Origin: Burkholderia sp. HI2500
GTDB lineage: Bacteria > Pseudomonadota > Gammaproteobacteria > Burkholderiales > Burkholderiaceae
Length of the DNA: 64,000 bases
Assembly (NCBI RefSeq): GCF_002223055.1
Contig: NZ_NKFL01000004.1
Location: forward strand, 372,001 to 436,000
Direction of reading: 5' to 3'
Shown: in pieces, positions 9,387 to 16,260 of the stretch
Layout: each line of letters opens with the position of its first letter
Position numbering within the stretch: position 1 is the stretch's first letter
Program-made: the position numbers and the translations under genes
The notes under the pieces: model-generated
The model's database searches: none
The model's input: the letters and a program-made list of their open reading frames with translations, nothing else
What the model was told of the DNA's origin: nothing

Positions 9387-11027
9387 ATGGCAGCTAAAGA
9401 CGTCGTATTCGGCGATTCCGCCCGTTCGAAGATGGTCGAAGGCGTGAACATTCTCGCCAACGCAGTCAAGGTCACGCTGGGTCCGAAGGGCCGCAACGTG
9501 GTGCTCGAGCGCAGCTTCGGCGGCCCGACGGTCACCAAGGACGGTGTGTCGGTCGCGAAGGAAATCGAGCTGAAGGACAAGCTCCAGAACATGGGCGCGC
9601 AAATGGTCAAGGAAGTCGCTTCCAAGACCAGCGACAACGCAGGCGACGGCACGACGACGGCAACCGTCCTCGCGCAATCGATCGTTCGCGAAGGCATGAA
9701 GTACGTCGCATCGGGCATGAACCCGATGGACCTGAAGCGCGGCATCGACAAGGCAGTCGCAGCGGCTGTCGAAGAGCTGAAGAAGATCAGCAAGCCGTGC
9801 ACGACCAACAAGGAAATCGCACAGGTCGGCTCGATCTCGGCGAACAGCGACACGTCGATCGGCGATCGCATCGCTGAAGCGATGGACAAGGTCGGCAAGG
9901 AAGGCGTCATCACCGTCGAAGACGGCAAGTCGCTGGCTGACGAACTCGACGTCGTCGAAGGCATGCAATTCGACCGCGGCTACCTGTCGCCGTACTTCAT
10001 CAACAACCCGGAAAAGCAAGTCGCCGTCCTCGACAACCCGTTCGTGCTGCTGCACGACAAGAAGGTGTCGAACATCCGTGATCTGCTGCCGGTGCTCGAG
10101 CAAGTCGCGAAGGCTGGCCGTCCGCTGCTGATCATCGCTGAAGACATCGAAGGCGAAGCGCTCGCAACGCTGGTCGTCAACAACATCCGCGGCATCCTGA
10201 AGACCGTTGCGGTCAAGGCGCCGGGCTTCGGCGACCGTCGCAAGGCGATGCTGGAAGACATCGCGATCCTGACCGGCGGCCAGGTGATCGCGGAAGAAAC
10301 CGGCCTGACGCTCGAGAAGGCAACGCTGGCAGAACTGGGCCAGGCGAAGCGCATCGAAGTGGGCAAGGAAAACACGACGATCATCGACGGCGCAGGCGAA
10401 GCCGTGAACATCGAAGCACGCGTGAAGCAAGTGCGCGCGCAAATCGAAGAAGCGACGTCGGACTACGACCGTGAAAAGCTGCAAGAGCGCGTGGCCAAGC
10501 TGGCTGGCGGTGTTGCAGTGATCAAGGTTGGTGCCGCGACCGAAGTCGAAATGAAGGAAAAGAAGGCACGTGTCGAAGACGCACTGCACGCAACGCGCGC
10601 AGCTGTGGAAGAAGGCATCGTGGCAGGTGGCGGCGTTGCGCTGATCCGCGCTCGCACCGCGATCGCAGGCCTGACCGGCGCTAACGCCGATCAAAACGCC
10701 GGCATCAAGATCGTGCTGCGCGCAATGGAAGAGCCGCTGCGCCAGATCGTCACGAACGGCGGCGAAGAAGCCAGCGTCGTGGTGGCGGCAGTTGCTGCAG
10801 GCCAGGGCAACTACGGCTACAACGCAGCGACGGGCGAGTACGTCGACATGGTCGAAGCCGGTGTTGTCGACCCGACCAAGGTCACGCGTACCGCACTGCA
10901 GAACGCAGCGTCGGTTGCAGGCCTGCTGCTGACGACGGACGCAGCTGTTGCTGAACTGCCGAAGGAAGATGCACCGATGCCGGGCGGCATGCCGGGCGGC
11001 ATGGGCGGCATGGGCATGGACATGTAA
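9387..11027 (+). CDS. groEL: Chaperonin GroEL
   Basis: The 546-residue, 60-kDa ATP-dependent chaperonin folds cytosolic proteins inside a double ring. Characteristic segments are present: [17 protein letters not shown], the ATP-binding [11 protein letters not shown], and the C-terminal GGM repeat tail ending GMGMDM. Length is standard. A Shine-Dalgarno sequence AAGGAG lies just upstream of the ATG. Codon choice is noticeably biased (for example CGC and AAG, abundant GAA), as expected for a highly expressed gene. Its last 95 bases, the stop region and the terminator occur again in degraded form at 16133-16260. Confidence 0.99.
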
Positions 11028-11131
11028 TCGACTTCGGTCGATGGTGTCCGGAGCGCGCAGCGATGCGCGTTCCAGCCAAAGAAAAAGACCCGCAGCGATG
11101 CGGGTCTTTTTTTATGGGCGCGTGGATTTCG
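10933..11131 (+). repeat. groEL 3' end plus terminator: direct repeat copy 1 (intact)
   Basis: This segment holds the last codons of groEL, the stop, the spacer, the terminator and about 15 bases beyond it. It is matched in the same orientation, exactly 5200 bases downstream at its left end, by the decayed copy at 16133-16260. Between 10941 and 10980 the copies differ at three of 40 positions. Copy 1 keeps the GGM codons and the upstream terminator arm that copy 2 has lost. Confidence 0.85.
11082..11113 (+). terminator. Rho-independent terminator of groESL
   Basis: The stem AAAAAGACCCGC (11082-11093) pairs with GCGGGTCTTTTT (11100-11111) around a six-base loop and runs into T residues. Because the flanking A and T tracts are symmetrical, it can also stop the minus-strand operon that converges from 15600. 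Confidence 0.92.
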
Positions 11132-11182
11132 ATGCAGGCTGAAAGCGGGCGGCTGATACTCGATGTGAGCCCGTCCCCTGTG

Positions 11183-14569: not shown

Positions 14570-15600
14570 CGAACGACCCCGAAGGCGCGCGTGGTTTCCT
14601 TCTCGACTGTGGCGACCTGGCTGCGGTCCGCTTGTGTCTGTTTGGCCGGGACAGCAGGATCCCGGTCCGTTTGCATCTGCTTGACCGCGAAACGTACGTC
14701 CTCGAGCAGCTTGCGGTTGGTGGACAGGAGGTCTGCAACGATGGCGATCAACAGCGTCTGGAATCCGGCGCCGACGAGGATCGATGCAAGGATGAGGGAC
14801 TGGACGTGCCCGGTGCCGTTGCCGGTCGCCCAGAAGTAGACGAAGCGCAGTCCGGTCAGTACACCCGTGCCGAACAGGATCGCGCCGAGCGTGCCGAAAA
14901 ACGCGGCGGGCCGATAGATGACGAAGATCCTGAAGATTGTCTGGGCCGATTGCATCACGTACGAGCGGATGCTTTTGACTAGGCGCGACGGCCGCAGGAA
15001 CCCGTTGACGCGGATGGGCACCGAGACGATCGACATGTTGCGCTGGCCTGCCTGGATGATCGTCTCCAGGGTGTAGGTGTAATCGCTGAATACTGTCAGG
15101 CGTTGGGCGGCATGGCGGCTGTAGGCGCGGAAACCGCTCGTCGTATCGGGAATCTCGGTGCGGCTGACTGCACGAACTACCCAGCTACCGATTTTCTGCA
15201 GCGATTTTTTGATCGGCGAGAAATGATCGATTTCGTCGATCGGCCGTGACCCGACGACGATATCGGCTTCACCCGCATAAATAGGCCGAATGAGCGCTGG
15301 AATATCGGCTGCATTGTATTGGTTGTCGGCGTCGGTATTGACGATGACATCGGCGCCGCGTTTCAGGCAGGCTTCGAGTCCGGTCGTGAACGCGCGCGCG
15401 AGGCCCTGGTTGCGTGGATGTCGGACAATGTGGTCGACACCGGCGGCGCGCGCTACATCGACTGTCGAGTCGGTGCTACCGTCGTCGACGATCAACCATT
15501 CGACCCTATCAAAACCCGGCACTCGGCGAGGCAGTGCCGCCAGCGCAATCGGCAACGTCGCGGCCTCGTTGAAGCAGGGGATTTGAATAATTAATTTCAT
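14566..15600 (-). CDS. GT2 polyprenyl-phosphate sugar synthase (GtrB/DPM1-like) with C-terminal membrane segments
   Basis: The 344-residue protein has an N-terminal GT-A domain with IQIPCFNEAATLP, the nucleotide-binding LIVDDGSTDST and the metal-binding NTDADNQY (DxD). Two C-terminal hydrophobic segments (AAFFGTLGAILFGTGVLTG and LILASILVGAGFQTLLIAI) are followed by a charged tail, as in GtrB and ArnC. Such enzymes load a sugar from a nucleotide donor onto undecaprenyl phosphate on the cytoplasmic face. It is the first gene of the island operon, reading toward groEL. The donor sugar cannot be read from sequence. Confidence 0.88.
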   Translation of the reverse strand: MKLIIQIPCFNEAATLPIALAALPRRVPGFDRVEWLIVDDGSTDSTVDVARAAGVDHIVRHPRNQGLARAFTTGLEACLKRGADVIVNTDADNQYNAADIPALIRPIYAGEADIVVGSRPIDEIDHFSPIKKSLQKIGSWVVRAVSRTEIPDTTSGFRAYSRHAAQRLTVFSDYTYTLETIIQAGQRNMSIVSVPIRVNGFLRPSRLVKSIRSYVMQSAQTIFRIFVIYRPAAFFGTLGAILFGTGVLTGLRFVYFWATGNGTGHVQSLILASILVGAGFQTLLIAIVADLLSTNRKLLEDVRFAVKQMQTDRDPAVPAKQTQADRSQVATVEKETTRAFGVVR

Positions 15601-16132
15601 CGCCTGTGAGAGATAAATTCGCCCCCACGCCGCCGGATTTCAAATCTTGAAAAAAACGATATCGTGTTTGGCGAACGTCGATGAAATATAAATCAAAATG
15701 AAATGGCAAAAAATTACGACAAATTACTTTCCATGATCGATCGTGGGCGGCTAAACGCCGTGCCGACGGGATCGGAAGCACGCCGGTTCTTCGCGGTATT
15801 GTCAGTGCCGACGGGCGGATCGACCCGTTGGTCGATGTGGCGGTGCATACGGTATGTCTTTTCTATCGTAATCAAATGTTTCAAAAACTGCGGCCGAGCG
15901 GCGGGCGTCGCGTAGTCGGCAGCGCCGGGCAGAGAGGGAAGGAAGCAGGCGACACGTTGGATGCTGCGCTGCACCTGATGACGAAGGGCGTCGCGGATTG
16001 GAGGGGCGTTGATGCGAGCGCGCAGGCGCGGCCGGCGGATCTTCCGGTGTCGGAGCAGGGGCGCCGACGCACGAAGATCCGGCCGTTGGCTCAGTGTCGG
16101 GCAATTCTTGGCGCGCTTTTGCTGCTTTCCGT
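15601..16132. other. AT-rich intergenic region upstream of the glycosylation island
   Basis: No credible gene was seen. Positions 15640-15730 are strikingly AT-rich for this genome (runs such as AAATATAAATCAAAATG), suggesting the promoter of the minus-strand island operon and foreign base composition. No single -35/-10 pair stood out. Beyond about 15750 the composition returns toward the GC-rich norm until the groEL remnant begins at 16133. Confidence 0.5.
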
Positions 16133-16260
16133 CGTCGGACGCAGCCGTTGCTGAACTGCCGAAGGAAGAGGCATCGATGCCGGGCGCATGGACATGGGCG
16201 TCGGTCGATGGTATCTGGAGCGCTCAGCGACGCGGGTCTTTTTTATGTGCGCGCGGATTT
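16133..16260 (+). pseudogene. Decayed copy of groEL 3' end and terminator (direct repeat copy 2)
   Basis: The plus-strand reading frame gives [17 protein letters not shown], matching Gro[19 protein letters not shown] near the C-terminus. After this the GGM repeats are missing (about 30 bases lost) and the stop codon is gone. The post-stop spacer TCGGTCGATGG (16201-16211) and the terminator arm GCGGGTCTTTTTT are recognisable, but the upstream terminator arm is deleted. About ten bases beyond the terminator also match. There is no groEL body here, so this is a fragment, not a decayed full gene. It marks the far border of the 11.2-15.6 kb island. Confidence 0.88.

Follow-up and report, generated by a model that had tools for sequence, protein, structure and literature searches.

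A predicted surface-glycosylation operon between groEL and thiD in Burkholderia is bordered by a decayed groEL end and a foreign-type thiD fragment

In a 64,000-nucleotide window of Burkholderia sp. HI2500 DNA (contig NZ_NKFL01000004.1, positions 372,001 to 436,000; from an 8.26-Mb genome, here labelled G000), a four-gene operon with a predicted role in surface glycosylation lies between groEL and thiD, and on its far side stands a decayed second copy of the groEL 3' end, adjoined on its left by a 51-bp fragment of the type found at the end of thiD in two other Burkholderia genomes. The explanation that we prefer, with a rough probability of 0.45, is that a donor DNA fragment from another Burkholderia became joined end to end and entered by a single crossover in groEL before G000 and its sister genome, G011, separated; events of this kind are already known, and what is new is the detail of the joint. 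Relatives were drawn from Burkholderia: whole-genome comparisons covered 65 genomes, G000 included (G000, G001 and so on), the interval between groEL and thiD was compared in the 64 other genus genomes returned by the search, and 80 named loci were fetched around thiD (L labels), both genes being present in 77 of them. The boundaries of the insert are made up of the following pieces, in window coordinates.

9387..11027, plus strand: groEL, intact, 546 amino acids (open reading frame; 97-100% amino acid identity at 64 genus loci).
10936..11118, plus strand: left copy of the repeat, comprising the last groEL codons, the spacer and the groEL terminator (hairpin at about 11076-11117; alignment and inverted repeat).
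15601..16090, minus strand: AT-rich region upstream of the operon, common to G011 and partly to G012 (alignments, GC content).
16091..16141, minus strand: foreign-type thiD 3'-end remnant, 51 bp, stop codon included, of the G012/G060 type (alignment scores).
16136..16262, plus strand: right copy of the repeat, a groEL tail remnant with half a terminator, in the same orientation as the left copy (alignments).
16344..17207, minus strand: thiD, the genome's own intact copy (open reading frame, tblastn).

A preliminary description of this DNA had reported a degraded second groEL end with its terminator, in the same orientation and offset by 5200 bp at the left, and alignment confirmed it: the groEL end scored 120 against the region at 15.6-16.4 kb, whereas none of 300 random 800-bp stretches of the window scored above 34, and the best match of the right copy elsewhere in G000 was the groEL end (E 4.4e-16). 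Both copies begin with CGGACG, at 10936 and 16136, and they are identical at 105 of the 114 columns that align without a gap. Deletions in the right copy have affected the glycine/methionine tail, part of which is gone, the stop codon and the terminator, whose left arm is missing; as a result the offset falls to 5167 and then to 5132 going right. A repeat search found pieces of the groEL tail and terminator to be the only direct repeats spanning the insert. The terminator scan missed the groEL hairpin, which is visible as an inverted repeat, and we drew no conclusion from the lack of a call at the right copy.

The 51-bp piece shares CGGACG (16136-16141) with the groEL remnant that it adjoins. 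When compared with 64 thiD ends, it scored 49 to G012 and 49 to G060, while the other 62 reached at most 26 and 2000 shuffles at most 29; the matching stretch of G012 forms the end of that genome's thiD, which aligns over 287 codons. Our reading of this sequence is that the piece represents the end of a foreign thiD, which supports the earlier suggestion that the donor was another strain or species, and since a foreign-type thiD end adjoins the groEL remnant, the donor probably already had the operon between groEL and thiD. The right boundary in G000 runs from the upstream region into the 51 bp of foreign type and then into groEL from CGGACG onward. The four genes do lie between the two groEL ends, as had been described, but not precisely so, about 490 bp of upstream sequence and the 51-bp thiD fragment intervening on the right.

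In G011 the upstream region of the operon is followed by a thiD 3' fragment, longer than that of G000 and joined to groEL at position -144; the groEL piece extends from 144 to 82 bp before the gene end, and beyond it lie the latter half of the terminator, a decayed type VI cassette of which the two ends are left, and thiD. As read from the letters, little microhomology is visible at the thiD-groEL joint. An ancient duplication of groEL had been offered as an alternative, to be recognized by a right copy reaching further into groEL in relatives. The G011 copy does begin further upstream, at -144, but thiD sequence precedes it, so that it does not point to duplication; the right copies seen here are tails only, and we rejected an old groEL duplication. 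The left arm of the terminator hairpin is gone from both remnants (window 16136-16262; G011 locus L118 6922-7003), and thiD transcription may therefore run through into the glycan operon, which has the same direction.

Whole-genome searches, for which two of the four island proteins served as queries, gave matches in 3 of the 65 genomes (G000, G011 and G012), each time between groEL and thiD, and no match to these two proteins in the other 62; at the locus itself, all four genes are present in G011 and G012 as well as in G000. Among the 64 groEL-thiD intervals compared, 46 measure 131-312 bp, 4 measure 331-1400 bp, 11 measure 1401-2400 bp and 3 are longer. (The 832-bp interval of G025 is an artefact of a cut groEL match, its true length being about 205 bp, and it is not among the 46; at L132 1169-1795 the groEL match of this genome ends early with a normal groEL end in place, which suggests a frameshift or an assembly error.) Since few genomes match the island and most intervals are short or hold another cassette, the gene block was probably inserted beside groEL and did not arise by duplication of groEL. 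This agrees with the insertion at the groEL 3' end proposed in the preliminary description: 62 of the 65 genomes have no match to the two proteins searched, 46 of 64 intervals are short, and the genomes nearest to carriers, apart from other carriers, are non-carriers. A second groEL-tail fragment was also sought in the short intervals, where 3 of the 46 gave a score higher than all 60 shuffles, by a margin of 1-3 points; we treated these marginal scores as chance.

None of the 80 named loci has island genes between groEL and thiD, the single distant match (L029, to the GT2 protein, 26% identity) lying outside the interval. The GT-C protein of the operon was found in 3 of 299 genomes of a family-level draw (G000, G012 and G264), in 2 of 398 of a phylum-level draw with alignment (G000 and G012), and as 457 matches among 8000 scored candidates (120 listed) from a large protein set; the module is thus rare but widespread. 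B. cepacia WS90, B. seminalis, B. latens, B. cenocepacia and B. territorii are among the named island-protein matches listed. Named short intervals occur in B. territorii (L025, 178 bp), B. seminalis (L015, 193 bp) and B. cenocepacia (L014, 196 bp), and by name these three species seem to include strains with and without the island.

A tree of all 65 genomes, made from groEL and the sequence downstream of thiD, pairs G000 with G011 as sister genomes (support 0.975) and groups G012 with G060 (support 1.0), the interval of G060 being 178 bp. Apart from each other, the island carriers have non-carriers as their nearest genomes; among the near relatives of G000, G018 carries a type VI cassette, and the intervals of G001 and G057 are short. 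Synonymous divergence (dS) of the island between G000 and G011 is 0.116-0.152, within the range of four neighbouring genes (0.048-0.161), and the island was therefore probably inherited from the common ancestor of these two genomes. Two further sequence marks were discarded. The left terminator AAAGAAAAAG, present in G000, G011, G012 and G060, was considered as a signature of the donor and is also present in G013, G022, G023 and G057 (the stop could not be placed in G025 and G052 in this comparison); a run of six T, common to the two remnants, was considered as a shared derived mark and occurs in 5 of the 54 genomes with the pattern.

What the sequences show directly is that the groEL end is repeated, that the site is empty in many other genomes, that a thiD fragment of foreign type is present, that G011 has a thiD-groEL joint, and which genes the insert contains; beyond this we infer an end-joined circle, a place of crossover, a single event and an order of deletions. 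The ancestor of G000 and G011 would have taken up DNA from another Burkholderia that held the operon between groEL and thiD, the incoming fragment consisting of the donor groEL tail, terminator, operon and roughly 75 bp from the end of donor thiD. The ends of this fragment would have been joined, thiD end to groEL position -144, and the product would have entered via one homologous crossover in the groEL tail, leaving the order groEL, terminator, operon, donor thiD scrap, second groEL tail, terminator and own thiD. The left groEL end would have kept its function and the second copy decayed. In G011 the joint would have been kept and the rest of the groEL tail lost; in G000 a deletion between two CGGACG repeats may have taken out the thiD/groEL joint, and another the terminator stem, and the G000 form could be derived from a G011-type joint by that one deletion between repeats. 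The groEL tail is duplicated on both sides of the insert and the genome's own thiD is kept. The left side of the insert shows no joint, which is expected for a homologous crossover and is not proof of one; the right side is illegitimate. The scar in G000 and G011 looks like the outcome of homologous recombination in groEL combined with end joining. The DNA-uptake genes dprA and comEC are present in G000, and natural transformation is a possible route of entry.

Several observations weigh against this reconstruction. The node joining G018 to G000 and G011 is weak (support 0.232). A G012-like strain as the direct donor had to be rejected, the island being far more diverged between G000 and G012 (dS 0.75-1.09) than the four neighbouring genes (0.10-0.50). 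The foreign thiD match is short and diverged, since blastn with the 51-bp end of G000 at E 1e-3 recovered only G000 and G011 and missed G012 and G060; the whole thiD fragment of G011 scores 54 against G012 and 48 against G060, with G006 close behind at 45, and its bases beyond the shared 51 bp are closer to thiD of the recipient clade than to that of G012, so that the donor would be a mosaic. In the part of PMC3240628 drawn on here, homology-facilitated illegitimate recombination is described as very rare in Escherichia coli conjugation, and its authors allow that the event might be too rare to affect genome evolution. Past the right terminator, G000 continues with a short-interval spacer (nearest to G001) and G011 with the ends of a decayed type VI cassette, and a single event would therefore need a later replacement in one lineage, the alternative being separate events. 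Independent insertions, of G000 into a short site and of G011 into a cassette-bearing one, would explain why right flanks and joints differ between the two genomes, but the same foreign-type thiD piece stands beside the groEL tail in both, the island divergence lies within the range of the flanks, and the genomes are sisters; we consider separate insertions improbable. Tandem duplication of the groEL tail, island and thiD end in an island-bearing genome, with later loss or replacement of the second island copy, is if anything slightly more improbable still: it would give the first part of the observed structure, but its second copy should hold the island, where G000 has a short spacer and G011 a remnant of a type VI cassette, and the thiD fragment is of foreign type.

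At the start of the right copy in G011 only one base is informative, a T (ACGCGTACC), which 17 of 58 genomes have; G000, G011 and G018 are among them, whereas G012 and G060 have C, the base expected if a circle had come from a donor with groEL of the G012 type. This leans slightly toward a donor with clade-type groEL or toward a linear version of the event, that is, an additive form of homology-facilitated illegitimate recombination in which a linear fragment recombined homologously in or upstream of groEL and had its thiD end joined to recipient groEL at -144 with no circle formed. Such a linear joining would yield the same final order of pieces, would explain the T as the type found in the recipient clade, is compatible with the competence genes dprA and comEC in G000, and has been proposed as the mechanism for type VI effector cassettes (PMC5361080, as cited in part). 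We nevertheless think it rather unlikely, since the relevant passages of PMC3240628 describe such events as generally deleting recipient DNA and as mostly showing 3-10 bp of microhomology, whereas here recipient DNA is duplicated and the G011 joint has little microhomology. A site-specific integrative element aimed at the groEL 3' end would produce an insert flanked by direct repeats of a gene end, and the preliminary description had suggested an element whose insertion restored groEL on one side. Nothing points to a self-moving element of that kind: profile searches matched no recombinase family among the four operon proteins, only groEL tail and terminator repeats span the insert, a fixed attachment site is at odds with the foreign thiD fragment and with repeat boundaries that differ in G011, and among cassette-bearing intervals a groEL repeat beats 30 shuffles only in G018 (28 versus 27). 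We regard this last explanation as very improbable, and retain the end-joined fragment with a single crossover in groEL as the preferred one.

The interval between groEL and thiD is variable in other genomes as well. At least one of Hcp (PF05638), Amidase_2 (PF01510) and a 149-amino-acid putative immunity protein is encoded in 13 of 64 intervals, and the G011 interval retains a 22-amino-acid trace of the type VI cassette. G018 (L125 1905-3480) and 12 other intervals hold a whole or partial type VI cassette as alternative cargo, and its distribution is patchy among close relatives, G055 having it and its sister G056 lacking it. Because a groEL self-repeat rises above shuffles only in G018, and there by one point, ordinary recombination in both flanks probably accounts for the exchange of the cassette-bearing intervals. 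Paraburkholderia and Caballeronia intervals hold other open frames (loci of other genera, L031, L039 and L081 among them); read from the letters only, these appear to encode APS kinase- and sulfotransferase-like proteins in Paraburkholderia, a DUF72-like protein in Caballeronia, and GT2 proteins like polyprenyl-phosphate sugar synthases at L076, L077 and L081. Downstream of groEL in G010 (L117 2224-3621), an IS110-family transposase gene lies beside a decayed type VI cassette, and in G036 (L143, about 1880-2090) a 75-bp exact self-match just 3' of the groEL terminator apparently comes from a tandem array of a 13-bp unit.

Variability of the locus seems to be general, while within the set of genomes examined the groEL scar is confined to the lineage of G000 and G011. 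In the open-access library searched we found no description of a variable groEL-thiD locus or of groEL-linked islands. We tentatively suggest, as a possibility on which we would not yet rely, that groEL-thiD is a standing exchange locus in Burkholderia and related genera at which competition and glycan cassettes swap by recombination in both genes, and that where one anchor fails, end-joined circles enter and leave groEL-tail scars; if this is true, counting such scars across genomes could show how frequently this route, which otherwise goes unseen, operates in nature. In any case, closely related genomes differ in whether this locus holds a type VI cassette or a surface-glycan operon. The way in which islands lacking an integrase enter a chromosome is usually a matter of guesswork; in the present case a remnant of the far flank of the donor, the G011 joint and a duplicated gene end are all legible, and the steps of a natural one-sided capture can thus be proposed and tested.

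The operon itself consists of four genes on the minus strand, the gene farthest right being the first.

14566..15600, minus strand: GT2 polyprenyl-phosphate sugar synthase, GtrB-like, 344 amino acids, first gene of the operon (PF00535, phrog_841, DPMS/ArnC structures).
13925..14569, minus strand: S-adenosylmethionine-dependent methyltransferase, 214 amino acids (Pfam PF13489 and related).
13047..13925, minus strand: YbhN/UPF0104-like membrane protein of about 292 amino acids with a resemblance to the MprF flippase domain; the position of its start codon is approximate.
11183..13039, minus strand: 618-amino-acid membrane protein with a GT-C glycosyltransferase fold and no Pfam family (fold and profile searches).

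The upstream flank had been described as unusually AT-rich, and its GC content is indeed 43% at 15601-15760, compared with 66% for the whole window; a sigma-70 scan of the upstream region gave no promoter-like site. The GT2 protein matches phrog_841 (GtrB-like, O-antigen conversion) at E 9.5e-24. By fold, the membrane protein at 13047..13925 matches MprF (Foldseek E 9.7e-4, TMq 0.54, root mean square deviation 7.8) and has a weak sequence match to LPG_synthase_TM (E 0.15). Judged by families and folds, the GT2 product is most likely an undecaprenyl-phosphate sugar, which the methyltransferase perhaps methylates; most likely the MprF-like protein would flip this sugar, and the GT-C enzyme would add it, in the periplasm, to a surface glycan or protein.

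The operon looks like a gtr-type periplasmic glycosylation system, which in the part of PMC11127046 cited here has three components: a polyprenyl-phosphate sugar synthase, a flippase and a GT-C enzyme. As in those systems, a synthase, a candidate flippase and a GT-C enzyme are encoded together; by genes and folds, a GtrB-like GT2 and a GT-C enzyme are present and a GtrA-type small flippase was not found. Unlike in those systems, the candidate flippase is MprF/UPF0104-like and not GtrA or MATE, a methyltransferase is added, and the GT-C protein belongs to no Pfam family.

For the route of entry, one close likeness is to single crossovers of end-joined linear DNA, which leave a foreign insert with a direct duplication of the homologous segment. 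In the sections of PMC3240628 that concern this plasmid assay in E. coli, 56 of 60 clones gave a PCR product diagnostic of a duplicated segment next to the insert, and sequencing of 14 clones showed duplications of 109-950 bp; the authors explain the duplications by circles and single crossovers, and 4 of 60 clones apparently arose by homology-facilitated illegitimate recombination, with deletion. That work was a laboratory assay with plasmids, whereas the event proposed here is an old one that happened in nature, involved chromosomal loci and left the far flank of the donor legible. For the displacement of type VI effectors in Vibrio, the portion of PMC5361080 used here proposes homology-facilitated illegitimate recombination; the two cases share a conserved anchor on one side, an illegitimate other side and older pieces behind the insert. 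In Vibrio orphan immunity genes are kept, while here a groEL tail and a donor thiD tail remain, and recipient DNA has been duplicated and not deleted. Finally, the present locus resembles the small variable segments treated in a passage of PMC2884548, 10-18% of which are flanked by direct repeats, in having variable cargo between conserved genes and repeats at its base; that passage concerns deletion between repeats.

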